A stretch of DNA of 64,000 bases from Streptomyces sp. WMMC500. Lineage in GTDB: Bacteria; Actinomycetota; Actinomycetes; Streptomycetales; Streptomycetaceae. Below the pieces are notes generated by a model. It searched no databases, was not told the DNA's origin, and was given only the letters and a program-made list of their open reading frames with translations. Each line of letters begins with the position of its first letter. Positions within the stretch are counted from its first letter, which is position 1. Shown in pieces: positions 16,990 through 37,601 of the stretch. Made by a program: the position numbers and the translations under genes. The DNA lies in the NCBI RefSeq assembly GCF_027497195.1, contig NZ_CP114905.1, forward strand, positions 1,054,001 through 1,118,000, read 5' to 3'.

Positions 16990-17787
16990 TCAGCGGGCGT
17001 CGGTACTGCGCAGGGTGAGGATGCGTACGCTGCGCTCGCCGGTGTGGGCGTCGCGGCCGTGCCAGCAGCGGTAGTTGTCCAGGACGAGGATGTCGCCTTC
17101 GTCGAGGCGGAAGCGCGGCAGCGCCGGCTCCATGGCGCGGACGGCCCGGTCGAGGCGGGCGAGCATGGCCTGTACGCGGTCGGCGTCGGGATCGCGGTGC
17201 AAGGGGGCGGCGCCGTCGGTGCGGCGGACGATGCGACGGCCGGTGCGGGTGTACTCGACGTGCCGGCCGACGCGCGGGACGGCCGGCAGGCCGCGGAGCC
17301 CGGCCCAGACGCCGTACAGGTCGACGTCGACGCCCGTGAGGAAGGCGTGCAGCTCGGGATCGCCGGACGCGAGGTCGTCGACGACACGGTGGGCGTCGAC
17401 GGCGAAGGAGTCGCCGCCGGCGGGTGCGGGGCGCACGCACTGGACGAGGACGAAGTCCTCGTCGGGGTCGCGCCGGCGGCGCTGCACGCCGCCGACGTCG
17501 ACGGTCAGGTCGAAGCTGTCGGCGTGCAGGTGGACGGGTTCGCCGTCGCGGGAGGTCCGCAGGCGCTGCGGGTACAGCTCGGCCAGGCGGCTGCCGAGGA
17601 CTTCGGCCGCCGCGACGACGAGGGCGTCGGCGGTGGCGTCGCGGCCGAGGAGGACGGCGGCGCCGGTACGGGCCAGCGAGGCGCCGGCCTCGTGCGCGCG
17701 GGCGGCGGGGAACCGGTCGGGGACGACGCCGGGGCCGTCCGCGTGGAGGGACACGTCGGCCGGCTGCTGCCGGAGGTCGTTGCTCAT
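16990..17787 (-). CDS. TauD/TfdA-like Fe(II)/2-oxoglutarate dioxygenase
   Basis: 265 residues. The iron facial triad is complete: the HxD of LHADSFD (near residue 107) and a distal His in LDNYRCWHGR, with an Arg further on for 2-oxoglutarate. It belongs to the clavaminate-synthase/TauD fold, which hydroxylates small amino-acid-like or sulfonated substrates. It is divergent from the radical SAM operon across 229 bp; whether the two are linked is unknown. The 198 bp on its other side, to the PfpI-like gene, shows nothing recognisable. Confidence 0.8.
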   Translation of the reverse strand: MSNDLRQQPADVSLHADGPGVVPDRFPAARAHEAGASLARTGAAVLLGRDATADALVVAAAEVLGSRLAELYPQRLRTSRDGEPVHLHADSFDLTVDVGGVQRRRRDPDEDFVLVQCVRPAPAGGDSFAVDAHRVVDDLASGDPELHAFLTGVDVDLYGVWAGLRGLPAVPRVGRHVEYTRTGRRIVRRTDGAAPLHRDPDADRVQAMLARLDRAVRAMEPALPRFRLDEGDILVLDNYRCWHGRDAHTGERSVRILTLRSTDAR

Positions 17788-18016: not shown

Positions 18017-19450
18017 ATGGGGCTGTCGGCGCGGCTACGGGCCGCCGAGCGGGCGAGTCGGCCGTACGATCCGGAGTTCACCGCGGCCATGGCCCGCCGG
18101 TGGGACGGGCTGCCGGCGCACGTGAGGACTCCGGGGCAGGTCCTGGGGCGGCACGGCGTCGGCTGTGAGGGCACCCACGGTGTCTTCCCCAAGTGCAACC
18201 TGGCCTGCACTCCCTGCTATCACTCCAGGGACGCCAACGCCGTGCGCGTCGACGGCCAGCACACCCGCGAGCAGGTCGACGCGCAACTCGCCCTGCTGCG
18301 GCGGGTGCGCGGGCCGCGGGCGCACGCCCAGCTCATCGGGGGCGAGGTGAGCCTGCTGCCCCCGGAGGACCACGCCGCCTGCCTTCAGATCATGCGCGGG
18401 CACGGCCGGGAGCCGATGAGCTTCACCCACGGCGACTTCGACGACGACTACCTGCGGGCGCTCGCGCTCGGTCCGGACGGCCGGCGGCGCTTCGACCGGC
18501 TGTCGTTCGCCGCGCACTTCGACAGGTTCATGTACGGGCGGCGCGGCATCGCCCGGCCGCCGAGCGAACGGGCGCTGAACCCGCACCGGAAGCGGTTCGC
18601 ACAGATGTTCGCGCGGCTGCGCCGGGAACACGGGGTGCGGTTCTTCCTGGCGCACAACATGACCGTCACCCCCGGCAATCTGGACGAGGTCGCCGACGTC
18701 GTCCGCGACACCCGCGCGATGGGCTACGGCATGCTCTCCTTCCAGCCCGCCGCCTTCCTCGGTGACGACCGGCGCTGGAAGGAGTCGTACCGCGAGGCGA
18801 CGCCGGACGCGGTGTGGGCGGAGATCGAGCGCGGCGCGGGCACGACGCTGGACTACCGCGTGTTCGAGCACGGCGACGTCCGCTGCAACCGCGCCGCCTA
18901 CGGCTTCTACGTCGGCGAGCGCTGGTATCCGTACCTCGACGGCGCCGATCCCCGCGACCTGGCCGTCCGGGACGCCTTCTTCCGCCACCTCGGCCGCGTC
19001 AGCTTCTCCGGCACCCCGCCCGCGCTGCTCGCCGTCCGGCTCGCCCGGATCGCCGCCCGCCACCCGTCCCTCGTGCTCACCGCCGTGCGCTGGCTCGCCC
19101 GCACGGTGCGCCGCGTCGGGCCGGCGCGCCTGCTCCGGCACCGGCTGCGGGCCCGCTCGGTATCGTTCCTCATGCACACCTTCATGGACGCCGAGCACGT
19201 CGCGCCCGCCTGGGAGCTGATGCGGCGCGGCGAGACCAGCGCGGACCCGAAGCTGCGCGAGACGCAGGAGCGGCTGGCCGCCTGCCACTACGCCATGGCC
19301 CACCCCGAAGACGGCACCCTGGTGCCGGCCTGCGTCCAGCACGCCGTGCTCGACCCGGCCGAGAACGCCGCACTGCGCACCCTGCTGCCGCTCGTCGAGG
19401 TCCGCACCTCCGACGCCCCGGGAAGGAACACCTCATGCGCATCGGCGTGA
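18017..19450 (+). CDS. Radical SAM protein, first gene of the rSAM/MTAP/glycosyltransferase operon
   Basis: 477 residues, ATG behind GGAGGG. The [4Fe-4S] motif is CNLACTPC (Cys60, Cys64, Cys67), followed by YHSRDANAV. A radical SAM barrel fits to about residue 260, and a long C-terminal region holds two more Cys (CHYAM and PACVQH, near residues 425-445) that might bind an extra cluster. It overlaps the phosphorylase gene by 16 bp, so it leads an operon of five. It generates a 5'-deoxyadenosyl radical; the substrate is unknown. I do not recognise a named family such as ArsS or ArsL. Confidence 0.82.
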   Translation: MGLSARLRAAERASRPYDPEFTAAMARRWDGLPAHVRTPGQVLGRHGVGCEGTHGVFPKCNLACTPCYHSRDANAVRVDGQHTREQVDAQLALLRRVRGPRAHAQLIGGEVSLLPPEDHAACLQIMRGHGREPMSFTHGDFDDDYLRALALGPDGRRRFDRLSFAAHFDRFMYGRRGIARPPSERALNPHRKRFAQMFARLRREHGVRFFLAHNMTVTPGNLDEVADVVRDTRAMGYGMLSFQPAAFLGDDRRWKESYREATPDAVWAEIERGAGTTLDYRVFEHGDVRCNRAAYGFYVGERWYPYLDGADPRDLAVRDAFFRHLGRVSFSGTPPALLAVRLARIAARHPSLVLTAVRWLARTVRRVGPARLLRHRLRARSVSFLMHTFMDAEHVAPAWELMRRGETSADPKLRETQERLAACHYAMAHPEDGTLVPACVQHAVLDPAENAALRTLLPLVEVRTSDAPGRNTSCASA

Positions 19451-20223
19451 TCACCGGCTCCGGCAGCTACGACTGGCCGCACCTCGCCGAGGCGGTCCAC
19501 CGCACGGTCCGTACCGGGCACGGCGACGTGCCGGTGACCGAGGGCCGCCTGGCCGGCGCCGAGGTCGTGCAGTTGTCCCGGCACGGGGCGGGCCACCGGC
19601 GGCTGTCCCACCACGTCGAGCACCGGGCGAACCTCGCCGCGCTGCTCGCCTGCGAGGTGCGGGCCGTGGTCTCCTTCACGGTCTGCGGAGCCGTCGACCC
19701 CGCGGCCGAGCCCGGTTCGCTGGTGGTCTTCGACGACCTGTACTTCCCGGCCAACCGGCTCCCGGACGGCTCGCCGTGCACCTGGTACGACACCCCGGGC
19801 GGCGCGGGCCGCGGCCACTGGATCTTCGACCGGCCGTTCTCCGGACCGCTGCGCGAGGCGCTGGTACGCGCCGCCGCGGGCGCGGGGATGCCGGTGCTGG
19901 ACCGCGGCACGTACGGGCACGTCGACGGACCCCGCTTCAACTCCCGCAGCGAGATCGCCGCTCTGGCCGCGGCCGGCGTGACCGCCGTCAGCCAGACCGC
20001 GGGCCCCGAGGTGGTGCTGGCCGGTGAGCGGGAACTGCCGCTGGCCCTGGTGGGCTACGTCACCGACTACGCCAACGGCGTGGCCGCCGAGCCCGAGCCG
20101 GTCGAGGCGCTGCTGGCGCGTCTGGAGACGAGCAAGCGGGTCTTCGCGGAGCTCGCCGAGCACGCCCTGCCCGGCCTGGAGCCGCCACCGCCCGCCGGCG
20201 TCGTCCACCGGTTCGGCGGATGA
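19435..20223 (+). CDS. MTAP/PNP-family purine nucleoside phosphorylase
   Basis: 262 residues. Family features: N-terminal GVITGSGSYDWP phosphate loop, LSRHGAGHRRLSHHVEHRANLAAL, a dimer-interface VDGPRFNSRSEI, and SQTAGPEVVLAGE near residue 190. It is close to methylthioadenosine phosphorylases, which release adenine from 5'-modified adenosines. In this operon two roles are plausible: clearing the 5'-deoxyadenosine made by the two radical SAM partners, or cutting a 5'-substituted adenosine intermediate to a sugar-1-phosphate. It overlaps both neighbours. Confidence 0.82.
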   Translation: MRIGVITGSGSYDWPHLAEAVHRTVRTGHGDVPVTEGRLAGAEVVQLSRHGAGHRRLSHHVEHRANLAALLACEVRAVVSFTVCGAVDPAAEPGSLVVFDDLYFPANRLPDGSPCTWYDTPGGAGRGHWIFDRPFSGPLREALVRAAAGAGMPVLDRGTYGHVDGPRFNSRSEIAALAAAGVTAVSQTAGPEVVLAGERELPLALVGYVTDYANGVAAEPEPVEALLARLETSKRVFAELAEHALPGLEPPPPAGVVHRFGG

Positions 20224-20951
20224 GCGGTGCCGTGACCCGACCGCCCGCCGTCTCCATCGTCATGCCGGTGCTCGACGAGGCCGCCACCGTCGGGCCCGCC
20301 CTGGCCCGGCTGCGCCGCGACTTCCCCGGCTGCGAGTTGATCGTCGTCGACGGCGGCAGCGCCGACGGCACCGCCGGCCTCGCCGCCGCTTACGCCACCG
20401 TGGTACCCAGCGCGCGGGGCCGCGCCGTCCAGATGAACACCGGGGCGCGCCTCGCGACCGGCGACGTGCTGTGGTTCGTGCACGCCGACACCGCGATCCA
20501 CCCCGGCGCGCTGGGCCAGATCCGTACCGCGCTCGCGGACCCCGCCGTCGTCGGCGGCGGGCTCACCCTGCGCTTCGACCGCCGCGGCCCGGGTCTTGAG
20601 TACCTCGCCCGGGCGTCCAACGCCCGCGCCCGCCGCCTGCACCACATCTTCGGCGACCAGGCGATGTTCGTCCGCCGCAGCGTCTTCGAGGCGCTCGGCG
20701 GCTTCCCGGAGCTGGCCATCATGGAGGACCTGGAGCTGTCGCGGCGGCTGCACCGGCGCGGCAGGCTGGCGGTCCTGCCGGCCACCTCCACCGCCTCCGC
20801 GCGTCGCTTCACCGAACACGGCACCTGGCGGATGATCTTCTTCATGCAGTACCTCAAGGTGCTGTACTTCGCCGGCGTCGATCCGGAGCGCATCCGCCGC
20901 CGCTACGCCCGCGGCCCGCGGCTGACGCGCCGCCGGCCCCCCGCCCCCTGA
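20220..20951 (+). CDS. Family 2 glycosyltransferase, TIGR04283-like ('rSAM/selenodomain-associated', now arsenosugar type)
   Basis: 243 residues. GT-A fold: VSIVMPVLDEAATV, then CELIVVDGGSADGT, VPSARGRAVQMNTGARLATGDVLWFVHADT with the metal-binding HAD, and a GDQAMFVRR segment followed by MEDLELSRRL. This matches my memory of the TIGR04283 group, first named for its association with radical SAM and selenium-domain genes and later for arsenosugar clusters. It starts within the phosphorylase stop (ATGA). It probably transfers or accepts a sugar using the phosphorylase product; donor and acceptor are unknown. Confidence 0.75.
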   Translation: MSGAVTRPPAVSIVMPVLDEAATVGPALARLRRDFPGCELIVVDGGSADGTAGLAAAYATVVPSARGRAVQMNTGARLATGDVLWFVHADTAIHPGALGQIRTALADPAVVGGGLTLRFDRRGPGLEYLARASNARARRLHHIFGDQAMFVRRSVFEALGGFPELAIMEDLELSRRLHRRGRLAVLPATSTASARRFTEHGTWRMIFFMQYLKVLYFAGVDPERIRRRYARGPRLTRRRPPAP

Positions 20952-20974
20952 CCCTCCGGCCCCCGGGAGTTCCC

Positions 20975-22678
20975 ATGCGCATCGCCGTCTGCGGCGGCCC
21001 CTACGGCAATCCCCACGCCCTGGCCGCCTTCGTCCGCGACGCCCGCGACCGCGGCGCCGAGCGGCTGTACTGCCTGGGCGACCTCGGCGGCTTCGGCCCC
21101 GGGGTCGACGCCCTGCGGCCGATCCTCACGGCCGGCGGCGTCGAGTGCATCGCGGGCAACTACGACGTGGCGCTCGCCCGCGGCGACACGGACTGCGGGT
21201 GCGGCTACCGCGACGCGAAGGACAACGAGTACGCCCAGCTCATCTACGACCACACCCTGGCCACCACCGACCGGGACTTCGCCGCCTGGATGGGCCGGCT
21301 GCCCACCGAGCGCCGCGAGCGGATCGGCGGTCTCGACGTGCACATGGTGCACGGCTCGCCCCTCGCCCTGAACGACTTCTGGTGGGAGTCCCTGCCCGAG
21401 GACGCGCACCGGCAGCGCGCCGAGGCCAGCGGCGGCGACGTGGTGCTGTGCACGCACAGCGGCCTCCCCTGGCAGCGCCGGCTCGAAGACGCCTCCGCCG
21501 GCGGCCTCGCCGGCACCCTCGTCGTGAACGTGGGCGTCATCGGCAAGCCCGCCAACGACGGCCGCCGCGAGGTCTGGTACGCGCTGCTCGATCTGGCGGA
21601 CGGCCGGGCGAGCGCCGAACTGGTGCCGCTGGCGTACGACTGGCGGGCGCAGGCCACCGACATGCGCGCCGCCGGGCTGCCGGAGCCGTTCGCCGAGACC
21701 ATCGAGACCGGCTGGTGGACCACCTGCCTGGAGATCCTGCCGCCGGCCGAGCGCGCCCGCGGGCGCTACCACCTCTACCGCAGCAGCCTGCCCAGCGGCT
21801 TCACCCCCGCCGACGACGGGTGGGGAACGGCCGCCGCCGAGGCGCGGGACGACGCCGACCGCCCGGTCGTCCCGCTCTTCGGCAGCCCGTACTTCCCCAC
21901 CCGGCTGTGGCTCTACACCAACTTCCACTGCAACCTGGCCTGCGACTACTGCGCCGTCGCCTCCTCCCCCACGGCCGACCCGCGCACCCTGCCGCCCGCC
22001 ACCGTGCGCGCCCTGGTCGACGAGGCCGCCGACGAGGGCTTCACCGAGCTGTACGTCACGGGAGGCGAGCCCTTCCTCCACCCCGACATCGTCGGCCTGC
22101 TCGACCACGCCTGCGCCCGGCTGCCCACCGTCGTCATGACCAACGCCATGCTGCTGCGCGGCCGTCGCGCCCGCCGGCTCGCGCAGCTCGCCGGCCGCAA
22201 GCTCACCGTCCAGACCTCCCTGGACGGCGCCACCCCCGAAGCCCACGACGCCCATCGCGGGCCCGGCTCCTGGGCCCGCACCATGGACGGCATCCGCCAC
22301 CTCATCGACATCGGTCTGCCCCCGCGCGTCGCGCTCACCGAAACCCCGGAGAACACCCGCGAGATCCCCGCCGTCGGCGACCTCCTCGCCGGACTCGGCC
22401 TGCCGGCCGAGCACTTCGCCGTACGCCCCCTGCTGCGCCGCGGCTTCGCCGAGACCGGCCTGGCCATCGGCACCGACTCCTCCGTCCCCGAACTCACCGC
22501 CTCCGCCGGAGGACTGCACTGGCACCCCGCCGGCGCCGACGCCGGCACCAGCCCCGACATGCACCTCGCCGCGGCGGGCACCCCGCTGTGGCGGGGAAAG
22601 CAACTGGTGACCGAGCGCTTCTTCGCCGCCCGCCTGCGGGACGGCAGCCTGCCCCGCCCCGTCAACTGCGCCATCTGA
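20975..22678 (+). CDS. Metallophosphoesterase-like / radical SAM fusion protein
   Basis: 567 residues. Residues ~1-245 have a metallophosphoesterase outline (GNPHALAAFV, CLGDLGGFGPG, AGNYDVAL, MVHGSP, CTHSG) with a Cys-rich DCGCGYRD insert. The usual first-motif Asp and His appear replaced by Gly and Tyr, and GHTH by CTHS, so the metal site may be altered. Residues ~305-567 are a radical SAM domain with CNLACDYC (Cys319, 323, 326) and TGGEPFLHPDI. Both halves lie in one uninterrupted frame. The gene is 23 bp after the glycosyltransferase and in the same operon. Substrate unknown. Confidence 0.8.
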   Translation: MRIAVCGGPYGNPHALAAFVRDARDRGAERLYCLGDLGGFGPGVDALRPILTAGGVECIAGNYDVALARGDTDCGCGYRDAKDNEYAQLIYDHTLATTDRDFAAWMGRLPTERRERIGGLDVHMVHGSPLALNDFWWESLPEDAHRQRAEASGGDVVLCTHSGLPWQRRLEDASAGGLAGTLVVNVGVIGKPANDGRREVWYALLDLADGRASAELVPLAYDWRAQATDMRAAGLPEPFAETIETGWWTTCLEILPPAERARGRYHLYRSSLPSGFTPADDGWGTAAAEARDDADRPVVPLFGSPYFPTRLWLYTNFHCNLACDYCAVASSPTADPRTLPPATVRALVDEAADEGFTELYVTGGEPFLHPDIVGLLDHACARLPTVVMTNAMLLRGRRARRLAQLAGRKLTVQTSLDGATPEAHDAHRGPGSWARTMDGIRHLIDIGLPPRVALTETPENTREIPAVGDLLAGLGLPAEHFAVRPLLRRGFAETGLAIGTDSSVPELTASAGGLHWHPAGADAGTSPDMHLAAAGTPLWRGKQLVTERFFAARLRDGSLPRPVNCAI

Positions 22679-22724
22679 CCGCGCCATCCGAACGATCGCG
22701 CCATCCGACCCAAGGAGAGCCGCC

Positions 22725-23906
22725 ATGGCCACCTCGCCCGGGCACGTCGCCGTCCTCGGGGCGGGCCCCGTCGGCCTCGACGCCGCGCTGGCCGCCACCG
22801 ACGCCGGCCTGTCCGTCACCGTCTACGAAGCCGGCGCCGCCGTCGGCGCCCACGTACGCGCCTGGGGCCACGTCCGCCTCTTCACCCCGTGGCGCCTCAA
22901 CGCCTCCGCCCGCATGCGCACCCACCTGGCCGGCGCCGGCCGCGACCTGCCCGAGGACGCCGCGTACCCCACCGGCACCGAACTCGCCGACCACCTGCTC
23001 GGGCCCCTGGCCGGCCTGCCCGCCCTCGCGGGCCGGGTCCGCCTCGGCCACCGGGTCGCCGCCGTGGCCCGCGCGAGCCTGCTCAAGCACGAGCACATCG
23101 GCAGCAGTACGCGCGCCGCCGCCCCCTTCCGCCTCCTGGTCGACGGCCCGGACGGCGAGTACGAGGACCACGCCGGCCTCGTCCTCGACTGCACCGGCAC
23201 CTACGCCACGCCCAACTCCCTCGGCGACGGCGGCATCGCCGCCCGGGGAGAGCGCGCCCTGGCCCACCGCATCACCCGCACCCTGCCGCCCCTGACCGCG
23301 GAGCCGGACCGCTGGGCGGGCACCGTCCTGCTCGTCGGCGCCGGCAAGTCCGCCCAGACCGCCGCGCGCGGCCTCGCCGAACTCCCCGGCACCCGCCTGG
23401 AGTGGCTCGTGCGCAGCCCCGACCCCGACTGGGGCGAGGTGCCGGACGACTCCCTGCCCGAGCGGCAGCGCCTGGTGGACGTCTCCCGTGACCTGGCCGC
23501 CGGCGGCCACGAGCGCGTCACCGTGCGGACCGGCGCCCGCGTCACCGCCCTCGCCCCGGACGCCGGCGGTCGCGTCCGCGCCGCCGTGTCCACCGCCACC
23601 GGCCCGCACGAGATCGTCGCCGACCACGTCGTCGCGCTCACCGGCTACGCCGCGGACTCCGCCCTCTACCGGCAGTTGCAGGTGCACGAGTGCTACGCCA
23701 CCGGCGCCCCGATGAACGTCTCCGCCGCCCTGCTCGGATCCGCCGGCGGCGACTGCCTCGCCCAGCCGGCCGTCGGCCTGGAGACCCTGCGCAACCCCGA
23801 ACCGGGGTTCTACATCCTGGGCGCCAAGTCCTACGGCCGGCTGAACACCTTCCTGCTGCGCGGCGGCTACGCCCAGGTCGACGAGGTCGCCGCCGCGTGG
23901 GCGTAG
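22725..23906 (+). CDS. FAD/NAD(P)-dependent flavoprotein oxidoreductase
   Basis: 393 residues. An N-terminal FAD Rossmann motif (VAVLGAGPVGLDAAL) and a second dinucleotide motif (TVLLVGAGKSAQTAARGL, near residue 205) place it among flavin monooxygenase/YpdA-like thiol reductase proteins. The C-terminal YILGAKSYGRLNTFLLRGGYAQV is FAD-binding and typical of that group. It ends the five-gene operon, 46 bp after the radical SAM fusion, behind an AGGAG site. It may oxidise or reduce the pathway product. It converges on the MerA-like gene 34 bp away. Confidence 0.8.
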   Translation: MATSPGHVAVLGAGPVGLDAALAATDAGLSVTVYEAGAAVGAHVRAWGHVRLFTPWRLNASARMRTHLAGAGRDLPEDAAYPTGTELADHLLGPLAGLPALAGRVRLGHRVAAVARASLLKHEHIGSSTRAAAPFRLLVDGPDGEYEDHAGLVLDCTGTYATPNSLGDGGIAARGERALAHRITRTLPPLTAEPDRWAGTVLLVGAGKSAQTAARGLAELPGTRLEWLVRSPDPDWGEVPDDSLPERQRLVDVSRDLAAGGHERVTVRTGARVTALAPDAGGRVRAAVSTATGPHEIVADHVVALTGYAADSALYRQLQVHECYATGAPMNVSAALLGSAGGDCLAQPAVGLETLRNPEPGFYILGAKSYGRLNTFLLRGGYAQVDEVAAAWA

Positions 23907-23940: not shown

Positions 23941-25350
23941 TCACCGCCGCAGTCCGCGGCGCAGTGCCAGCAGCGCGCCGGTCGCGCCCCTGGCCCGCGC
24001 CAGCAGGCCGTAGACGTCGGCGAGGGCGGCGTGCCAGGGGCCGTCGGCGTACGTGGGATAGGGGTGGATCGTCCTGGCGTACTGCGCGGCCGTCCAGCCG
24101 AGCCGGACACCGGCGGCCAGGTGGGCGATGGTCTCCCCGGCGCGTGGCGAGACGACCGTGGCGCCGACGATGCGCCCGCGTGGACCGAGGACGAGGGTGG
24201 TGAAGCCGTCGGTGCGGCCCTCGGTCACGGCGCGGTCGACCCGGTCGTGGGTCAGGGTGTGCACGCGTACGGCCTCGCCGTGCTCGGCCCGTGCCTCCGC
24301 CGCGGTGCGGCCGACACGGGCCACTTCGGGGTCCGTGAACGTCACCCACGGCACCGCGGCGCCGTCGATGCGGCGGCGCACGCCGAGGAGCGCGTCGGCG
24401 GCGGCGGCGCCGCCCTGGGCGCCGCCGAGGTGGGTGAAGGCGGAGCGGCCGGTGACGTCCCCGGCCGCGTAGATGCGCGGATTGCCGGTACGCAACCGGG
24501 CGTCGACCCGGACGTCGCCGCGCTCGGTGAGCCGCACGCCGGCCGTCGCCAGGCCGAGTCCCGCGGTGTTGGCGCGGCGCCCGGTGACGGCCAGGAGCGC
24601 GTCGTACGGCAGCGGGCCGCCCGGCCCGTGCACCGCGCCGCCGGTGACCTTCTCGGCGGGGTACCCGGTCAGGACGGTGGCACCCGCCGCCTCCAGCGCC
24701 CGCCGGACCGCCGCGGAGGCGTCCGGTTCCTCCTGCGGAAGCAGCCGCTCCGCCGCCTCCGCCACGGTCACCCGCGCCCCCAGCCGGGCGAGGGCCTGCC
24801 CCAGTTCGCACCCGGCGGACCCGCCGCCCAGTACCACCAGCCGGTCGGGCAGCCGGTCGAGACCCCACACGGAGTCGGTGGTCAGCGGTGCTGCCTCGGC
24901 CAGGCCGGGCACGGGCGCCAGGGCCGGGGAGGAGCCGGTGGCGATCACCGCGTAGCGGAAGCGGACTTCCCGGCCGGCCGCGGTCAGGGTCCGGCCGCCG
25001 GTGAACACGGCCCGGCCGTGGGCCACTTCCACCCCGAGCGGGCGCAGCGACTCGGCGGAGTCGTGCGGCTCGATCGCCGTGATCGCCTCCCGCACATGGT
25101 CCATGGCGGCGGCGAGGTCGACGGGGCCGGTCGCGGCGGCGAGCCCGTAACGGTCCGCGCGGCGGGCGGTCGCGACCTCCCCCGCCACGTGCAGCAGCGC
25201 CTTGCTGGGGACGCATCCCGTCCACAGGCAGTCCCCGCCCAGCCGGTCGCCCTCGACCAGCAGGGTGCGGGCGCCGAGGCGGCCGGCGGTACGGGCTGCG
25301 GTGAGTCCGGCGCTCCCGCCGCCGACGACCACCATGTCGTATGCGCTCAT
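23941..25350 (-). CDS. MerA-like class I pyridine nucleotide-disulfide oxidoreductase
   Basis: 469 residues from ATG at 25348-25350. FAD motif VVVGGGSAGLTAA, redox-active GDCLWTGCVPSK (Cys41, Cys46), NAD motif VVLGGGSAGCELGQAL, and a C-terminal HPYPTYADG in place of the family's usual HxHPT...E end. No C-terminal Cys pair or N-terminal HMA domain is present, so true mercuric reductase activity is unlikely. Relatives of this kind often sit beside TVP38/TMEM64 genes, as here. It is divergent from the methyltransferase-TVP38 pair across 177 bp. Confidence 0.83.
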   Translation of the reverse strand: MSAYDMVVVGGGSAGLTAARTAGRLGARTLLVEGDRLGGDCLWTGCVPSKALLHVAGEVATARRADRYGLAAATGPVDLAAAMDHVREAITAIEPHDSAESLRPLGVEVAHGRAVFTGGRTLTAAGREVRFRYAVIATGSSPALAPVPGLAEAAPLTTDSVWGLDRLPDRLVVLGGGSAGCELGQALARLGARVTVAEAAERLLPQEEPDASAAVRRALEAAGATVLTGYPAEKVTGGAVHGPGGPLPYDALLAVTGRRANTAGLGLATAGVRLTERGDVRVDARLRTGNPRIYAAGDVTGRSAFTHLGGAQGGAAAADALLGVRRRIDGAAVPWVTFTDPEVARVGRTAAEARAEHGEAVRVHTLTHDRVDRAVTEGRTDGFTTLVLGPRGRIVGATVVSPRAGETIAHLAAGVRLGWTAAQYARTIHPYPTYADGPWHAALADVYGLLARARGATGALLALRRGLRR

Positions 25351-25527: not shown

Positions 25528-26307
25528 ATGGACGCAGACGAGTGGCGGCGCTACGTCACCACCTACCACGACGCCCGACCCGGCATCACCGAGCGGCTCT
25601 TCGCACTCGCCGAGGCGTCCCCGTACACCTGGCTGGCCGAACCGCTGCGCGGCGGCCCGGGCCCGGTGCTCGACCTGGCCTGCGGCTCGGCGCCCACCCG
25701 CGACCTGCTGCCGGACACCGCCTGGCTCGGCGTCGACAGCTCGCGCGGTGAACTCGGCGAGGCGGCCCGCCGGGGGCGCGGCCCGCTGGTGCGGGCGCGC
25801 GCGGACGCCCTGCCGGTGCGCGCGGGCAGCGTCGGCGCGGTGTGCGCGGCGATGTGCCTGCCGGTGGTGACCCCCTTGCCGCGCGTGCTCGGCGAGATCC
25901 GCCGGGTGCTGCGCCCGGGCGGGCGGCTCGCGGCGCTCGTACCGGCGTCCTCGGGGCTGACGGTGGCCGGCGCGGCCGGCTGGGCCCGGGTGATGGGCGC
26001 GCTGCGGGCGGTCCGCCAGCCCTGGCCCAACCCGGACGCCCGCGACGGCCTCGCCGGGCTGCTGCGGGCCGCGGGCTTCCTCGTCCGCTCCGACGAGCGG
26101 CAGGTCTTCACGCTCGCCGTGGAGACACCCCGGGCGGCCGGCCTGCTGGCCGACGCGCTCTACCTCCCGGGTCTGACCGCGCGGCGGGCGGCATCCGCCA
26201 AGCGGTCGCTCGCCCGCTGGGCGCGCCCCGGCCGCCTGCTGCCGTTGCCTCTGCGCCGCATCGTGGCCGAGAGCCCGGCCCCGCACCCCGGCAGGGCGGG
26301 CTCATGA
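25528..26307 (+). CDS. SAM-dependent class I methyltransferase
   Basis: 259 residues from ATG at 25528. Motif I is VLDLACGSAPTRDLL, followed by LGVDSS and a VLRPGGRLAALVPA segment, the usual methyltransferase order; a basic C-terminal tail follows. It has no ArsM-like set of conserved Cys. It overlaps the TVP38 gene by 4 bp. The acceptor is unknown; context beside the MerA-like, phosphatidyltransferase and YnjBCD genes hints at metalloid or lipid chemistry, but this is inference. Confidence 0.78.
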   Translation: MDADEWRRYVTTYHDARPGITERLFALAEASPYTWLAEPLRGGPGPVLDLACGSAPTRDLLPDTAWLGVDSSRGELGEAARRGRGPLVRARADALPVRAGSVGAVCAAMCLPVVTPLPRVLGEIRRVLRPGGRLAALVPASSGLTVAGAAGWARVMGALRAVRQPWPNPDARDGLAGLLRAAGFLVRSDERQVFTLAVETPRAAGLLADALYLPGLTARRAASAKRSLARWARPGRLLPLPLRRIVAESPAPHPGRAGS

Positions 26308-27035
26308 ATCCCGGCGACGACAGCCCGCCGCCCGGGGAGGCGCCCGGGGCGCCCGGCCGCGGCTCCTCCCGCGGCGCCCTCGTCAAGCTGCTCGTCCTGC
26401 TCGCGCTGCTGGCCGGGACAGCCTGCTGGGTCGTCCTGGGCGGGGCCGAGTTGCTGGATGACGTACGCCGCTGGGTGGACGGCCTGGGCGTGTGGGGGCC
26501 GGTCGTCTTCGTCCTCTGCTACGCCCTGGCCGTGACCGTGCTGCTGCCCGGTTCCGTGCTGACGGCGTCCGCGGGGGCGCTGTTCGGGATGGCGGTCGGC
26601 GTGGTGGTCGTGCTGGCGGGCGCCACCGCGAGCGCCGTCGTCTCGTTCGGCCTGGCCCGGTGGCTCGGCCGGCCGGCGGTCGCCCGCTGGACCGGCTCGG
26701 GACGGCTGGCGCGGCTGGACGTCTACCTCGCCCGCCGCGGCTTCGTCGCCATCCTGCTGCTGCGCATGGTCGCGCTCTTCCCCTTCGCCGCCGTCAACTA
26801 CGGCGCGGGGGTGGCCGGGGTGCGGTTCGCCCCGTACGTGGCGGCCACCGCGCTGGGCATCGTGCCGGCCACGGTGGTGTACACGGGGCTGGGCGGGGCG
26901 CTGGGCGACCCGGGCTCGCCGCTGCTGTGGCTCGCGCCTGCGGGCCTGCTGGTGCTGAGCGCCGCCGGCTGGTGGGCGACGAAGCTGCTGCGCGCCCGTA
27001 CCGCGGACGTCAGCGAAGCAGCCGGTAACCGGTGA
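26304..27035 (+). CDS. TVP38/TMEM64 (VTT/DedA-superfamily) membrane protein
   Basis: 243 residues with about six membrane segments after a 25-residue Pro/Gly-rich cytoplasmic head. The VTT signature is clear: LLLRMVALFPFAAVNYGAG followed by FAPYVAATALGIVPATVVY. E. coli YdjX and YdjZ are of this family. Roles in lipid scrambling and oxyanion (selenite) uptake have been proposed for relatives. It is translationally coupled to the methyltransferase and its 3' end overlaps the convergent phosphatidyltransferase gene by 26 bp. Confidence 0.85.
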   Translation: MNPGDDSPPPGEAPGAPGRGSSRGALVKLLVLLALLAGTACWVVLGGAELLDDVRRWVDGLGVWGPVVFVLCYALAVTVLLPGSVLTASAGALFGMAVGVVVVLAGATASAVVSFGLARWLGRPAVARWTGSGRLARLDVYLARRGFVAILLLRMVALFPFAAVNYGAGVAGVRFAPYVAATALGIVPATVVYTGLGGALGDPGSPLLWLAPAGLLVLSAAGWWATKLLRARTADVSEAAGNR

Positions 27036-27627
27036 CGACCCGGTGGGCCGCGGTGACGGCCACGACCGCCGCCCACGCCCACGCGACGGCGTGGGCGTGG
27101 CCCGGCAGCAGGCACCACAGGGTGTGGACCGCGATGGTCTCCGCGCCCTCGGCCAGACCGCCGAGGAAGTTCAGCGAGCGACCGCGGGAGAGCCGGTCGG
27201 CGCTCCGCCCGCGGCCGGTGCGCTCGGCGATCGAGGAGAAGGCGAGGAAGGCCGTGCCGTTGACGTAGTAGGCGAGCAGCACCAGCAGGAACGGCAGCGC
27301 GCCGCCGCCCGCCCCGACCGCGACGCCGACGACGAACGCCCCGTAGCAGAGGAAGTCGGCCGCGATGTCGAGGAATCCGCCCGCCCCGCCGGCGGCGGTG
27401 CCGCGGCGCCGGGCGAGCGGGCCGTCCAGGCCGTCGGCCAGCCGGGAGACCAGCCACAGCACGGCGGCCGTCGTCCACCAGCCGCAGGCCGCCGCCCCGG
27501 CGCCCGCCAGGCCGAGGGCGGCGCCGAGTGCGGTGAGCCGGTTCGGTGTGACGGCCGGGCGGTCCAGCCGGGCGGCGAGCCTGCCCATCGGGCCGGCCAG
27601 CACCGCCCGCGCCCGCGCGTCCAGCAT
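27010..27627 (-). CDS. CDP-alcohol phosphatidyltransferase (YnjF-like)
   Basis: 205 residues with about six membrane helices. The family signature DG-x2-AR-x8-G-x3-D-x3-D is present as DGLDGPLARRRG...GGFLDIAADF (residues ~65-92), with one residue pattern shift. It would join a CDP-linked lipid to an alcohol. E. coli ynjF, of the same family, also lies beside ynjBCD. It is divergent from the transporter operon with 165 bp between. Confidence 0.82.
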   Translation of the reverse strand: MLDARARAVLAGPMGRLAARLDRPAVTPNRLTALGAALGLAGAGAAACGWWTTAAVLWLVSRLADGLDGPLARRRGTAAGGAGGFLDIAADFLCYGAFVVGVAVGAGGGALPFLLVLLAYYVNGTAFLAFSSIAERTGRGRSADRLSRGRSLNFLGGLAEGAETIAVHTLWCLLPGHAHAVAWAWAAVVAVTAAHRVVTGYRLLR

Positions 27628-31848: not shown

Positions 31849-33669
31849 TCACCCGCCGTCCGTGACGGTCCGGCGGCCGTCGGGGTGGCGGCGGGTGCGG
31901 CCGGTCGCGTCGAGGGTTTCCAGGAGGGGGATCGCGACGCGGCGGCTGACGGCGAGGGCGCGGGCGGCCTCGCCGACCGTGAACGGCTGGGGCACGGCGG
32001 CGAGTCGCCGGGCGGCGCGGCCCACGGACCCGGCGGGGAGGTGGACCGCGCCCACCCGCTCCAGCGCGCCGCGGCGCACCAGCAGACTCAACGCCTCGGG
32101 CGTGAGCCCCAGTTCGTCCAGCCGCCGCCGGGTGGGGGCCTGGAACGGGGCGGACCGCAGCTCGTCGAGCAGCCGCTGCCACGCGGCGGCGACCGCCGCG
32201 GGGAGCCCGTCCGCCTCGTCCGCGCGGTAGAGCCTGCCGTCGCGCTGGACCAGGTCGGCACCGGCCGCGGCGGCCAGGCGGTCCCAGGCGGTGTCCGGCG
32301 GCAACGCGAGGAGTCGACGGGCCTGGGCGACCGGGAGTCCCGGGTCGTCGGGGTGGGCCTCGGCGTGGTCCCGCACCGCCGCGGCCAGGGTGGCGCCCAG
32401 CCGTTCCGCGTGCCCTCCGTCGATCAGCCAGGGCGCGCCGTCCGCGTCGACGGCGTAGCCCTGCGCGGCGAGTCGGCGCCGTTCGTCCAGGCCGACGGCG
32501 GCCAGCCGCGCGGCGGGGTCGGTGGGCTCGGTGACGCCGGCCAGTTGGCGCGCGCGGGTGGCGGCGGCTCCCCGTCCCGACAGCGGGGGCGGCTCCGGAT
32601 CCAGCACCGTCGCGCCGACCAGCAGTCGGGATCCCGGGTCGCGGAGCAGCAGCCGGTCGCCGACGTGGAGCGGCAGCGGGGTGCGCAGGGTGAGGCGTGC
32701 GGCCTCGTGACCCAGTGGCCGCAGCCGCGCGCTGGTTGCGGCGGTGCCGCAGTGGACGAGGGGTTCGGCCGGCAGGCGGGCAGGCTCACGGCCGCGGGCC
32801 GTCCGGCCCGTCGGTGCGTAACGGACGTCCACGCGGTCCGTGGTCCACCACCGCTCCGGCGTGAGGAGCGCGTTTCCCCTGCCGACCTGGTCGGCGGTGA
32901 CGCGGCGGAGGTTGACGGCGACGCGGGCGGGGCCGGTCACCCGGGGAACGGCGTGGCCGAGGCTCTCCAGGCCGCGTACCTGAACGGTGCGACCGGCGGG
33001 GGCGAGGTGCAGGGTGTCGCCCTCGGCGAGGGTTCCGGCGGCGAGGGTGCCGGTGACGACCGTGCCGGCGCCCGCCACGCTGAACGCCCGGTCCAGCCAC
33101 AGCCGTACGGGGGCCGCCGGATCGGGCGGCGGCCGGGCGGCGGCCAGCGCGTCGAGTTCGCCCAGGAGCAGGTCGAGCCCTTCGCCGGTGCGGGCGCTGA
33201 CGGCGACGGCCGGGGTGCCGGCGAGGCCGGTGCCGGAGGTCCGTTCCACCGTCTCCGCGAGGGCCGGTGCGGGGTCGGCGAGGTCGGCGCGGGTGACGAC
33301 CCGCAGCCCGGCGCGCACGCCGAACGCGTCGAGGGCGGCGAGGTGTTCGGCGGTCTGCCGGCGCCAGCCCTCCTCGGCGGAGACCACCAGCAGCACGGCG
33401 GGCGCGGTGGCGATTCCGGCGAAGGTGGTGGCCAGATAGCGGTGGTGGCCGGGCACGTCGACGAAGGCGAGGGTGCGCCCGCTGGGCGCGGTGGTCCAGG
33501 CGAAGCCCAGGTCGAGGGTGAGGCCGCGGCGGCGCTCCTCGGCGAGCCGGTCGGGGTCGGTGCCGGTGAGGGCGCGCACCAGCGTCGACTTGCCGTGGTC
33601 GACGTGGCCGGCGGTCGCGATCACCAGGCCGGGGGCGGCGGTCACGCCTTCCCCGGGGGCGGCGGTCAC
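31849..33669 (-). CDS. selB: Selenocysteine-specific elongation factor SelB
   Basis: 606 residues from a GTG that overlaps the selA stop (GTGA). GTPase motifs: GHVDHGKST, DVPGHHRY and a TRADL-type guanine site; EF-Tu-like domains 2-3 (DRAFSVAGAGTVVTGTLAAGTL) follow, then C-terminal winged helices (residues ~430-606) that bind the SECIS hairpin in selenoprotein mRNAs. It brings Sec-tRNA to in-frame UGA. Three GTG codons (33669, 33645, 33627) could serve as starts because of a 21-bp tandem repeat; the first is best coupled to selA, the third matches the usual protein N-terminus. Confidence 0.93.
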   Translation of the reverse strand: MTAAPGEGVTAAPGLVIATAGHVDHGKSTLVRALTGTDPDRLAEERRRGLTLDLGFAWTTAPSGRTLAFVDVPGHHRYLATTFAGIATAPAVLLVVSAEEGWRRQTAEHLAALDAFGVRAGLRVVTRADLADPAPALAETVERTSGTGLAGTPAVAVSARTGEGLDLLLGELDALAAARPPPDPAAPVRLWLDRAFSVAGAGTVVTGTLAAGTLAEGDTLHLAPAGRTVQVRGLESLGHAVPRVTGPARVAVNLRRVTADQVGRGNALLTPERWWTTDRVDVRYAPTGRTARGREPARLPAEPLVHCGTAATSARLRPLGHEAARLTLRTPLPLHVGDRLLLRDPGSRLLVGATVLDPEPPPLSGRGAAATRARQLAGVTEPTDPAARLAAVGLDERRRLAAQGYAVDADGAPWLIDGGHAERLGATLAAAVRDHAEAHPDDPGLPVAQARRLLALPPDTAWDRLAAAAGADLVQRDGRLYRADEADGLPAAVAAAWQRLLDELRSAPFQAPTRRRLDELGLTPEALSLLVRRGALERVGAVHLPAGSVGRAARRLAAVPQPFTVGEAARALAVSRRVAIPLLETLDATGRTRRHPDGRRTVTDGG

Positions 33670-33673
33670 GCCT
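33629..33673. repeat. Two copies of a 21-bp direct repeat, 24-bp period, at the selA/selB junction
   Basis: 33629-33649 and 33653-33673 are identical. The repeat duplicates the junction, so SelB gains an eight-residue VTAAPGEG unit and a second GTG start behind a purine-rich site. Confidence 0.85.
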
Positions 33674-34973
33674 CCTCCGGCGGCGCGGTCACCGCGAGAA
33701 CGGCGGCGAGCAGCGTCACGTCCTCCTCCTCGGGAACGGTCCGCAGGTCGAGCAGCAGCCGGTCGCCGTGGACGCGGCCGACGACGGCCGGGTCGCCGGA
33801 GCGCAGCGGCCCGGCGAGGGGGGCGGGCAGCGCGACGGCGGCGCTCGGCAGGGTGACGCCGGGCGCTCCCCCGCCGCCGACCCGGGCCTCGCTGGGCAGC
33901 GCCTCGGCGGCGACGCCCCGTTCGGTGAGCCGGGCCGCCAGCATCTCGGCGCGGGCGGCGAGTTCCGCCTTCCGTACCGCCAGGGCCCGTGCCACCGGAG
34001 GTGGGGGGCCGAGGACGGTGGCCTCCAGGGCGGCGAGGGTCAGTTTGTCGACGCGCAGTGCGCGGGCCAGCGGATGGGTGCGGAGCCGCTCGACGAGGTC
34101 GCGCCGGCCGAGCAGCAGGCCCGCCTGCGGACCGCCGAGCAGCTTGTCCGCGCTGGCGGTGACCAGGTCGGCGCCCTGGTCGAGGGAGGTCGCGGCGTCG
34201 GGCTCGTCGGGCAGCGCGGGATGTGGCCGCAAGAGCCCGGAGCCGATGTCGTGGACCAGCGGGACGCCCAGCGTGGCGAGGTGGGCGAGGGAAACGGAGG
34301 ACACGAAGCCGGTGGTCAGGAAGTTGGAGGGGTGCACCTTGAGCACGAGGGCGGTGTCGGGGCCGACGGCGCGCGCGTAGTCGTCGAGGTGGGTGCGGTT
34401 GGTGGTGCCGACCTCGACCAGCCGGGCGCCGGTGCTCTCCACCAGCTCGGGGAGGCGGAACCCGTCGCCGATCTCTACCAGTTCGCCCCGGCTGATGAGG
34501 ATTTCGCCGTTCCCGGCGAGGGCGGTGGCGGCGAGCACCAGTGCGGCGGCGTTGTTGTTGACCAGATGGACCGCCTCCGCGTTCGGGACTGCCGCGGCGA
34601 GGGCGGCAAGCGCGCCCCTCCCCCGCCGGGCCCGGCGCCCGTCGCTCAGGTCGAACTCCACGTCCGTGGGACCGGACGCGGCCCGCAACGCCTCGGTGGC
34701 GGCGGCGGAGAGCGGCGCGCGGCCGAGGTTGGTGTGCACGACGACGCCGGTGGCGTTCACCACCGGGCGCAGCGAGGTGGCGTGCCGGGGCAGGTCGGCG
34801 ACGGCCGCGTCGGCGGCCTCTTCGGGGGCCACCAGGCCGGCGCGCACGCGGTGTTGGACCTCTGCGACGGCGCGACGGACCAGGGTGCGCCCCAACCGCA
34901 GGGCGGCGTCGGCGAGTCGGGGGTCGGCGAGCAGGGCGTCGGTGCGCGGAACACGGCGTCTGGCGTCCGTCAA
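33666..34973 (-). CDS. selA: L-seryl-tRNA(Sec) selenium transferase SelA
   Basis: 435 residues from TTG at 34971-34973, chosen because GGGGAGG lies six bases upstream and the length then matches the family; the frame stays open through the tRNA gene but that part is not protein. PLP-enzyme features: VVNATGVVVHTNLGRAPLS, VHLVNNNAAAL, and the PLP-lysine motif ASADKLLGGPQAG. It turns Ser-tRNA(Sec) into Sec-tRNA(Sec) using selenophosphate from SelD. It is coupled to selB and follows the tRNA-Sec gene on the same strand. Confidence 0.92.
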   Translation of the reverse strand: MTDARRRVPRTDALLADPRLADAALRLGRTLVRRAVAEVQHRVRAGLVAPEEAADAAVADLPRHATSLRPVVNATGVVVHTNLGRAPLSAAATEALRAASGPTDVEFDLSDGRRARRGRGALAALAAAVPNAEAVHLVNNNAAALVLAATALAGNGEILISRGELVEIGDGFRLPELVESTGARLVEVGTTNRTHLDDYARAVGPDTALVLKVHPSNFLTTGFVSSVSLAHLATLGVPLVHDIGSGLLRPHPALPDEPDAATSLDQGADLVTASADKLLGGPQAGLLLGRRDLVERLRTHPLARALRVDKLTLAALEATVLGPPPPVARALAVRKAELAARAEMLAARLTERGVAAEALPSEARVGGGGAPGVTLPSAAVALPAPLAGPLRSGDPAVVGRVHGDRLLLDLRTVPEEEDVTLLAAVLAVTAPPEEA

Positions 34974-35031
34974 CGCCGGCCTCCCCGGTGGTGTGCGGAA
35001 CGGACTCGGAGCTTCGAGGGGGCTGTGTCGG

Positions 35032-35124
35032 CGGAGGCGTATGGGAATCGAACCCACCCGGCCGGGGTTCCCGACCGCATCGGTGTTGAAGACCGTGGGG
35101 GCCACCAGGCACCCGCCCGCCTCC
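35032..35124 (-). tRNA. selC: tRNA-Sec, anticodon TCA
   Basis: About 93 bases, reading right to left. The acceptor arms GGAGGCG (35118-35124) and CGCCTCC (35033-35039) pair fully; the anticodon loop CTTCAAC carries TCA (35087-35089); the T loop is GGGTTCGATTCCC; a long GC-rich variable arm is present. This is the build of a bacterial selenocysteine tRNA. The eighth acceptor pair expected in bacteria looks mismatched (G-A), and CCA is not encoded. It lies 59 bp upstream of selA, in the same direction, and opposite selD. Confidence 0.9.
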
Positions 35125-35200
35125 GGCAGGGAGTCTACGTCCACGAGCGAGGCACCCGTCCCCTGTCCGCGCACGGGCGTTCGGGCGTAACGTCCGGCGG

Positions 35201-36205
35201 ATGACCGTGCGACTGACCCAGTACGCGGGCGGCGGTGGCTGCGCCTGCAAGATTCCTCCCGGCGAACTCGACGCCCTGGTCTCCTCCCTGGACCGGACGG
35301 GCAGCCGCCCGAAGGATCCGGCCGCGGAGTTGCTGGTGGGCCTGGAGGGCGGCGGAGACGACGCCGCCGTGGTCCGCCTCGACGGTGAGCGGGCGCTCGT
35401 CACCACGGCCGACTTCTTCACACCGGTGGTGGACGACGCGTACGACTGGGGCCGGATCGCGGCGGCCAACGCACTCTCCGACGTCTACGCGATGGGCGGC
35501 ACGCCGTGGGCGGCGATCAACCTCCTCGCCTGGCCCAGGGACACGCTGCCGATGGAGTTGGCCGCCGAGGTGCTGCGGGGCGGCCGTGACGTGGCGCACG
35601 CGGCGGGCTGCCAGGTCTCGGGCGGCCACAGCGTGACCGATCCGGAGCCCAAGTACGGGATGTCGGTGATGGGGATGGTCCACCCCGAGCGGATGCTGCG
35701 GCTGGACGCGGCCGCGCCGGGGCGGGCGCTGACCCTCACGAAGCCGCTGGGCAGCGGGGTGCTCAACGCGCGGCACAAGGCGACCGGGGAGGTCTTTCCC
35801 GAGGCGGTGGCCGTCATGGCCGCGCTGAACCGGGACGCCTCGGTCGCGGCGGTGGCCGCGGGTGTCCGGGCGGGAACGGATGTCACGGGGTTCGGCCTGC
35901 TGGGCCACGCGTACAAGCTGGCGCGCGCCTCCGGTGTGACGCTGGCGATCGACGCGGCGGCCGTGCCGTTGCTGGCGGACACCCGGCCCGCGGCGGTCGA
36001 CGGCTTCGTCAGCGGCGGCACCCGGCGGAATCTGGCGTGGGTCGAGCCGTGGGTGGAGTTCGGCGCCCTCCCCGAGGTCGACCGGTTGGTGCTGGCCGAC
36101 GCGCAGACGTCGGGAGGGCTGCTGCTGGCCGGCGAGGTGCCGGGACACCCGGTGATCGGCGAGGTGCTGCCCCCCGGTGAGGCTCCGGTGGTGGTACGCG
36201 GCTGA
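35201..36205 (+). CDS. selD: Selenide, water dikinase SelD (selenophosphate synthase)
   Basis: 334 residues. The glycine-rich N-terminus has GGGGCACKIPP with the catalytic Cys and Lys; the position that is selenocysteine in many bacteria is Cys here, so SelD does not need its own product. ATP/Mg motifs: DDAAVVRLDG, TTADFFTPVVDD, NALSDVYAMGG, and GGHSVTDPEPKYG. It makes selenophosphate for SelA. It is divergent from tRNA-Sec and selA with 76 bp between the tRNA and its start. Confidence 0.94.
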   Translation: MTVRLTQYAGGGGCACKIPPGELDALVSSLDRTGSRPKDPAAELLVGLEGGGDDAAVVRLDGERALVTTADFFTPVVDDAYDWGRIAAANALSDVYAMGGTPWAAINLLAWPRDTLPMELAAEVLRGGRDVAHAAGCQVSGGHSVTDPEPKYGMSVMGMVHPERMLRLDAAAPGRALTLTKPLGSGVLNARHKATGEVFPEAVAVMAALNRDASVAAVAAGVRAGTDVTGFGLLGHAYKLARASGVTLAIDAAAVPLLADTRPAAVDGFVSGGTRRNLAWVEPWVEFGALPEVDRLVLADAQTSGGLLLAGEVPGHPVIGEVLPPGEAPVVVRG

Positions 36206-37599: not shown

Positions 37600-37601
37600 C
37601 C

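Follow-up and report, generated by a model that had tools for sequence, protein, structure and literature searches.

A five-gene operon of Streptomyces sp. WMMC500 as a proposed arsenosugar-type pathway variant without ArsS

Introduction

Arsenosugar chemistry itself is already known, and its expected adenosyltransferase is ArsS (TIGR04167). Here, we compare loci encoding ArsS with a five-gene operon of Streptomyces sp. WMMC500, which occupies positions 18017-23906 of a 64,000-nucleotide stretch of contig NZ_CP114905.1 (positions 1,054,001 to 1,118,000; hereafter the window, to which all coordinates without a locus name refer). We propose that this operon encodes an arsenosugar-type pathway variant without ArsS, in which a fusion of a Car1-like domain and a radical SAM domain would replace the missing enzyme. 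We put the probability of this statement as a whole at about 50%, with a higher confidence in the arsenic context of the operon and a lower one in each single reaction. It is the ArsS-less variant with the fusion, and not the chemistry, that would be new.

The ArsS loci taken for comparison (Cupriavidus KK10 and the genomes G359, G390, G259, G284 and G550) have a TIGR04283 transferase and an MTAP-type phosphorylase in common with the window, to which Cupriavidus KK10 adds ArsM, TIGR04282, MerA-like and TVP38 genes and a homologue of the first operon gene, rSAM1. The window differs from these loci by the absence of ArsS, by a fusion protein and a flavoprotein in its stead, and by an operon that includes neither ArsM nor TIGR04282. 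Organoarsenic biosynthesis in Streptomyces is represented by bisenarsan, whose bsn cluster is described, in the passages of a 2025 review cited here, as devoid of SAM-dependent enzymes (PMC12159101); the window differs by two radical SAM proteins and a proposed sugar route. For actinomycetes, the same passages mention simple methylarsenicals and bisenarsan, whereas arsenosugars are named for cyanobacteria (PMC12159101). The arsinothricin genes arsQML (PMC8552651) are related insofar as arsinothricin ArsM is the best-scoring model for some of the ArsM-like genes located by the fusion gene. A further point of comparison is Car1, the arsenate reductase of Rufibacter tibetensis (Shen 2024, as cited in PMC12124457), which is a metallophosphoesterase; according to a paper on arsenic-methylating Paraclostridium, a metallophosphoesterase from an ars operon resembles Car1 and has the two cysteines, Cys74 and Cys76, that reductase activity requires (PMC12124457). 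Among the matches listed in a search of the open-licence literature (titles and beginnings of abstracts, with subscription journals outside its scope), no such operon and no ArsS-less arsenosugar locus was found.

Results

Organization and conservation of the operon

Five open reading frames (ORFs) on the plus strand were confirmed, with starts, stops and frames checked:

18017-19450, plus strand: rSAM1 (gene 1), a divergent radical SAM protein related to radical SAM genes within ArsS loci of Burkholderia and Cupriavidus
19435-20223, plus strand, ATG at 19435: MTAP-like nucleoside phosphorylase (gene 2), from the clade to which enzymes of actinomycetotal ArsS loci belong
20220-20951, plus strand: TIGR04283 family glycosyltransferase (gene 3), 230.3 bits with a cut-off of 182
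20975-22678, plus strand: fusion protein (gene 4) with an N-terminal Car1-kind metallophosphoesterase domain and a C-terminal radical SAM domain
22725-23906, plus strand: FAD-dependent oxidoreductase, or flavoprotein (gene 5), a frequent neighbour of the fusion gene

An earlier note, made from the letters of this DNA alone, had described one operon with genes overlapping or less than 50 bp apart, and the spacing bears this out, with overlaps of 16 and 4 nt followed by gaps of 23 and 46 nt. The same note had called gene 3 TIGR04283-like and would have been refuted by a transferase scoring outside this family or by homologues scattered without conserved co-occurrence; gene 3 exceeds the cut-off of this family of "arsenosugar" transferases, and the gene set recurs widely in Actinomycetota. 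The glycosyltransferase of the actinomycetotal ArsS locus L131 scores 220.1 bits to the same model. The GC content at third codon positions is 0.95-0.97 in four operon genes, in line with streptomycete codon bias. A simple gene caller had missed the MTAP frame in favour of an antisense ORF, and the frame is backed by Pfam, NCBIfam and homologues. Gene 5 gave generic FAD-oxidoreductase matches only (Pfam, NCBIfam). Four operon genes end in TGA and all five read as full-length proteins; no search for selenocysteine insertion sequences was made.

The search with gene 4 returned 136 relatives from Streptomyces, Pseudonocardia, Conexibacter, Modestobacter, Catenulispora, Acidimicrobiales and others, the best 80 of which, chosen by gene 4, were analysed as loci. 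By tblastn at 1e-8, these 80 loci contain the glycosyltransferase in 66, rSAM1 in 53, a MerA-like gene in 50 (weak matches included), the FAD-dependent oxidoreductase in 42 and the MTAP-like gene in 40 cases. With hidden Markov models (HMMs) and bit thresholds set by us, the corresponding counts among the 55 loci that span 15 kb or more are 48, 42, 38, 35 and 33; in addition, 35 of these loci have a TIGR04282-like gene, and 21 have an ArsM-like gene belonging to one or the other of two kinds. The set persists across lineages while the gene order is shuffled, and the association of the five genes exceeds chance. Simultaneously, the operon is patchy: rSAM1 occurs in 8 of 199 genomes of the same genus and in 10 of 396 actinomycetotal genomes, and both the glycosyltransferase and the fusion gene lie beside it in three of these ten (the window, L195 and L196) within the stretch examined.

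Linkage to ArsM and similarity to ArsS loci

An all-against-all comparison of the ORFs of the 80 loci yielded a recurrent methyltransferase family whose 191.7 bits to an arsenite methyltransferase model stay under the cut-off of 263; ArsM models score lower still and likewise below cut-off. Twelve cysteines are invariant in 19 of 19 rows, among others in the motifs CC, YGCG, SNCVLNL and GECLAGAL, and those in the last three we take to be the arsenite-binding ones. In the sample of 199 genomes, this ArsM is present in six, four of which also carry rSAM1 at a distance of 2.2-3.4 kb (Fisher p 1.6e-5, not corrected for descent). Of the 30 streptomycete loci, 27 led to 27 operon-bearing genomes, and 20 of these encode ArsM; the best matches lie in the locus or within about 2.3 kb of it, as coordinates compared by eye with contig names unseen. 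In L055 and L079, an ArsM-like gene of a second kind accompanies the fusion gene, scoring 341 and 325 bits with the arsinothricin ArsM model (cut-off 500); relatives of it occur in L053, L076 and L082.

ArsS above its cut-off was found in eight of the 396 actinomycetotal genomes, with an adjoining glycosyltransferase related to gene 3 in seven and an MTAP in six. The exceptions are G580, in which neither stands beside ArsS, and G575, in which a short contig shows the glycosyltransferase without MTAP. G580 has three ArsS-like genes (L132, L133 and L134), one of which was matched across an in-frame TGA. The phosphorylases next to actinomycetotal ArsS are 45-50% identical to gene 2 and share with the operon enzymes stretches such as SQTxGPE and DYANGV. 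In the phosphorylase tree, 18 operon rows and 4 ArsS-locus rows are united on a long branch with 100/100 support, apart from 23 canonical MTAPs, the strain's own included, and from 8 other phosphorylases; a quick tree of 67 rows agrees. Gene 2 reaches 139.8 bits with the MTAP equivalog model TIGR01694, about half of the cut-off of 274.85, and the strain encodes a separate canonical MTAP (C1:5717747-5718484, 293.7 bits).

An unannotated stretch of plasmid p1 of Cupriavidus KK10 carries in one run ArsM, a CMD-domain protein, ArsS (465.7 bits), MerA-like, TVP38, TIGR04283 (277.7 bits), TIGR04282 (201.5 bits), MTAP (276.4 bits to TIGR01694), an rSAM1 homologue (100.7 bits with a custom HMM) and DUF547. 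Its ArsM is cut by the edge of the stretch and scores 179.5 bits to arsinothricin ArsM, while its MerA-like and TVP38 genes are similar to those next to the window operon. Since this ArsS operon has most of the same genes, most genes of the window operon fit an arsenosugar pathway.

The fusion protein

Gene 4 matches Metallophos_2 and Radical_SAM in Pfam, and its structural model, with a mean predicted local distance difference test score of 83.1, shows a metallophosphoesterase and a radical SAM fold. In a structure search, the N-terminal half resembles Ap4A hydrolase/metallophosphoesterase (3qfm, E 7.6e-14), and the C-terminal half is a generic radical SAM domain. Plasmids contain 30 records with relatives of the N-terminal half (23-34% identity over 89-100% of this half, E at most 2e-16). 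Nine of the ten records that we chose for examination are ars operons with ArsR and ACR3, ArsM or ArsC (seven from Bacteroidota, one each from Paraclostridium and Rubrobacter), and the tenth, from Roseomonas, is the exception. This Roseomonas haemaphysalidis plasmid (L210:3169-11268) encodes, one after another, TIGR04282, DUF547, an rSAM1 homologue, a second radical SAM protein, a PhnD/E/C-like transporter and a metallophosphoesterase; the two halves of gene 4 are thus present as separate genes, with 34% identity to the N-terminal and 33% to the C-terminal half.

The N-terminal half is homologous to the Car1-kind metallophosphoesterases of ars operons, the comparison having been made with these proteins and not with Car1's own sequence, and retains both cysteines. 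All 39 aligned fusion proteins have C74 and C76, and the CGC motif is common to gene 4 and the ars-operon proteins in 10 of 11 aligned rows. Unlike the ars-operon proteins, gene 4 is fused to a radical SAM domain, and it departs from them in the metal-binding residues of the phosphoesterase: motif I has both its D and its H replaced, and the GHTH motif is altered. The radical SAM cysteines are C319, C323 and C326. The best NCBIfam match, through the radical SAM half, is the Rv1681 family (NF049973), at 266.3 bits below the cut-off of 380, from which gene 4 is distinguished by its fusion to a reductase-like domain; in Mycolicibacterium a relative adjoins a PhnD-type binding protein. No ArsL model stood among the matches listed (none for rSAM1, the best 25 of 48 for gene 4), the library not having been checked for ArsL. 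The relatives of gene 4 terminate at a similar position. The gene 4 of genome G144 (L089:10001-11953) is a single stop-free frame of 651 codons, about 84 codons longer than that of the window, and carries an insert.

Based on the conserved C74 and C76, the homology to ars-operon proteins and the radical SAM fold, we propose a reductase domain that would feed a radical SAM adenosyltransferase. With ArsS missing, the radical SAM enzyme left in the actinomycete operon is gene 4, which we propose as the replacement.

rSAM1

The first gene product is a remote member of its superfamily, with 25.9 bits to Pfam Radical_SAM (cut-off 29.5), no match to NCBIfam models, nothing useful in a sequence search of the PDB and weak radical SAM matches only in a structure search (best E 2.1e-5). 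Its family comprises 2614 proteins at E <= 0.001 among 7998 candidates scored. Invariant across 34 aligned rows are the cysteines of the CX3CX2C motif (60/64/67) and additionally C50, C290 and C423. Relatives occur in 47 records among 72,556 plasmids (45 Burkholderia, 1 Cupriavidus, 1 Roseomonas), and three neighbourhoods, one per genus, were examined. In the B. glumae plasmid, two genes separate the homologue from an annotated arsS. Since homologues are located in ArsS loci of Burkholderia and Cupriavidus, we group rSAM1 with the arsenosugar genes: it belongs with them and coexists with ArsS. rSAM1 as a substitute for ArsS had been our initial favourite and was dropped when its homologues were found in loci that also hold ArsS.

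Discussion

Proposed pathway

Gene content, family membership, linkage, the shared phosphorylase clade and the conserved cysteines are directly supported; from these we infer reactions, substrates and their order, including the replacement of ArsS. In most relatives, the route would start from a methylated arsenical produced by ArsM, which in the window strain would have to be imported or made otherwise. The Car1-like domain of the fusion may then reduce the pentavalent (methyl)arsenical to the trivalent form by means of C74 and C76, and the adjoining radical SAM domain would attach a 5'-deoxyadenosyl group to arsenic. Removal of adenine by the MTAP-like phosphorylase would give 5-arseno-5-deoxyribose 1-phosphate. 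This sugar may be activated by the TIGR04282 protein, encoded in many relatives and not in the window operon, and would be passed to an acceptor by the TIGR04283 transferase. rSAM1 is assigned a putative later or side step, and the flavoprotein and the MerA-like enzyme would handle the redox state.

The earlier note had seen a set for a modified nucleoside or sugar and had left the element open, with selenium, sulfur or none as options in the absence of arsM, arsR and arsS. The first part stands, as the genes fit a route from a 5'-metalloid-adenosine to a sugar. As to the element, comparative evidence favours arsenic because of the linked ArsM in 20 of 27 genomes, the phosphorylase clade shared with actinomycetotal ArsS loci, the Cupriavidus ArsS operon and the reductase-like domain. 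This strain may produce an arsenosugar, work with another element or have a reduced pathway only, since ArsM and an operon-borne TIGR04282 are missing and selA, selB, selD and the selenocysteine tRNA lie about 8 kb away.

If the proposal is true, an ArsS-independent route brings arsenosugar chemistry to streptomycetes and other actinomycetes, and one polypeptide would couple the reduction of an arsenical to the formation of a carbon-arsenic bond. The operon and its relatives would then also provide a gene list for the steps after adenosylation, i.e., phosphorolysis, activation and transfer.

Several observations weigh against this proposal. The single-contig 8.61-Mb genome has no ArsM (best generic match 38.4 bits) and no TIGR04167 match above the cut-off of 300, the best one, at 52.1 bits, being gene 4 itself. 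The radical SAM half of gene 4 has 50.5 bits to ArsS and scores higher to several unrelated families. TIGR04282 is present in many relatives (179.6 bits in L020) and absent from the window operon, the only TIGR04282-like gene found in the strain being located 4.1 Mb away with 122.1 bits (cut-off 134). Seven of the ten rSAM1 carriers among the 396 genomes are without the glycosyltransferase in the stretch examined, some contigs being short. The MTAP of the Cupriavidus ArsS operon groups with canonical MTAPs in the tree, and the special phosphorylase clade is therefore not required for the route. Six of the 30 plasmid records of the N-terminal half are cyanobacterial, at least three of them beside a GTP-binding protein; they are outside the ten examined and need not be ars operons. 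ArsS and rSAM1 occur together in none of the 396 genomes, as chance alone would predict for 8 and 10 carriers; we set this aside as uninformative at such counts.

Finally, 7 of the 55 long loci are without glycosyltransferase, rSAM1 and MTAP, and five of these seven contain PhnD- or PhnC-like genes, so that the fusion gene must have another role too. We regard such PhnD-type loci as a different use of the same fusion enzyme. In L052, L053, L055, L061, L067 and L082, genes for a PhnD-like binding protein and a transporter come after the fusion gene, and there is no glycosyltransferase. An ArsM-like gene is also present in L053, L055 and L082, of which that of L055 was covered by the model scan.

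Alternative explanations

The alternative that survives best is that this strain retains a reduced remnant: ArsM and TIGR04282 would have been lost, and the remaining genes, although intact, would no longer form a working pathway. Apart from the two absences, it draws on the decay seen among relatives. Three other ArsM-less genomes retain ArsM fragments by the operon (L022:4624-4980; L109:13858-15654 in G183, 39 bits; L111:10966-11312 in G144). G183, over the 32 kb examined, has kept rSAM1, MerA, the methyltransferase, TVP38, the CDP-alcohol transferase and the transporter, but of genes 2-5 only remnants of gene 4. L024 is without a full-length phosphorylase, the rSAM1 of L034 has stops, and the presence of ArsM changes seven times on the best rSAM1 tree. 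In the window, however, none of the five genes is truncated, codon bias is normal in those scored and the conserved cysteines are present; the ArsM-less loci L022, L027 and L089 likewise have the complete set of five ORFs. TIGR04282 is missing in 7 of the 30 streptomycete loci as well, some of which bear ArsM. We thus consider a remnant unlikely in this strain.

A second possibility retains the arsenosugar-type pathway and assigns the carbon-arsenic bond to rSAM1, with the fusion performing another step, e.g., reduction together with a different radical transfer. The natural fusion of rSAM1 to the TIGR04283 transferase in one Streptomyces protein (P0044) and the extra invariant cysteines would suit such an enzyme. 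Yet, in B. glumae and Cupriavidus rSAM1 coexists with ArsS, the expected adenosyltransferase, and it is also found without MTAP and glycosyltransferase nearby. In addition, 6 of the 48 long loci that contain the glycosyltransferase have no rSAM1 match above 150 bits; L043 and L045 begin inside rSAM1 at a contig edge, but L023, L040, L074 and L079 do not. Formation of the bond by rSAM1 accordingly appears quite improbable to us.

A third reading replaces arsenic by selenium or sulfur, so that an adenosylated chalcogenide would give a seleno- or thiosugar. Complete selB-selA-tRNA-Sec-selD genes begin about 8 kb past the operon, directly after the transporter of the cluster. In a set of 31 distinct genomes carrying the operon or its rSAM1, selA is present in 6 of 9 without ArsM versus 1 of 22 with ArsM (Fisher p 0.0007). 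A genome was counted as "without" when a single ArsM query found nothing at E <= 1e-40, by which other kinds could be missed outside the strain's own genome. A plasmid of Miltoncostaea oceani (L218, 1-10636) has selB-selA-selD beside a CMD protein, a radical SAM protein, a GT2 glycosyltransferase, DUF2064 and a PhnD-type binding protein. The adjacency is not conserved, as selBAD lies 2.9 Mb from rSAM1 in G183 and on another contig in G144, and in a tree-aware test two to three of five independent pairs were in favour and none against, a number with which significance cannot be reached. Moreover, both the linked methyltransferases and the reductase-like domain belong to arsenic families. Selenium was therefore rejected as the leading explanation, and a selenium- or sulfur-based product is, in our view, very unlikely. 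We would give equally little credence to a switch of element, in which ArsM was lost, the sel genes became neighbours and adenosylated selenium yields a 5-seleno-ribose sugar; if true, one gene set would serve arsenic in ArsM-bearing and selenium in selenocysteine-using relatives.

Radical SAM enzymes release 5'-deoxyadenosine, which MTAPs can cleave. The simpler reading of the earlier note, by which the phosphorylase only recycles the 5'-deoxyadenosine of both radical SAM enzymes and the product contains no metalloid, has lost ground and is hardly credible given the canonical MTAP elsewhere in the genome, the clade that the operon copy forms with enzymes of actinomycetotal ArsS loci, and the arsenic families among the neighbouring genes of relatives.

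Genomic neighbourhood

The operon is flanked by the following features:

16990-17787: TauD-family dioxygenase, divergent, upstream of the operon
23941-25338, minus strand: MerA/lipoamide-dehydrogenase-like oxidoreductase; start not fixed, the frame reaching further upstream
25528-26307, plus strand: class I SAM methyltransferase, not ArsM, which accompanies the operon in many streptomycetes
26307-27035, plus strand: TVP38/VTT-domain membrane protein; start codon not fixed
27010-27627, minus strand: CDP-alcohol phosphatidyltransferase family protein, recurring by rSAM1 in L197 and L199
27822-31821, plus strand: ABC transporter with binding protein, two permeases and ATPase; boundaries approximate
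31849-33666, minus strand: selB, a neighbour probably outside the pathway
33666-35174, minus strand: selA, a neighbour, whose true start is probably closer to 34955; upstream of this, the frame overlaps tRNA-Sec
35030-35124, minus strand: tRNA-Sec (selC), a neighbour
35201-36205, plus strand: selD, a neighbour

Parts of the ABC transporter adjoin the cluster also in L016, L018, L020, L085 and G183. The CDP-alcohol phosphatidyltransferase lies near rSAM1 in distant Actinomycetota too (L197:8352-8957; L199 near 3832), and its recurrence might hint at a lipid-linked product. If the arsenosugar-type pathway holds, this enzyme and the nearby membrane proteins offer a testable idea for the formation of arsenolipids. 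Past selD and one hypothetical gene, positions 37015-39028 encode a MauE/DoxX-like membrane protein and a thioredoxin-like protein, both labelled by eye, as well as a cysteine-rich protein with sub-cut-off matches of its C-terminal part to peptidoglycan hydrolase models.

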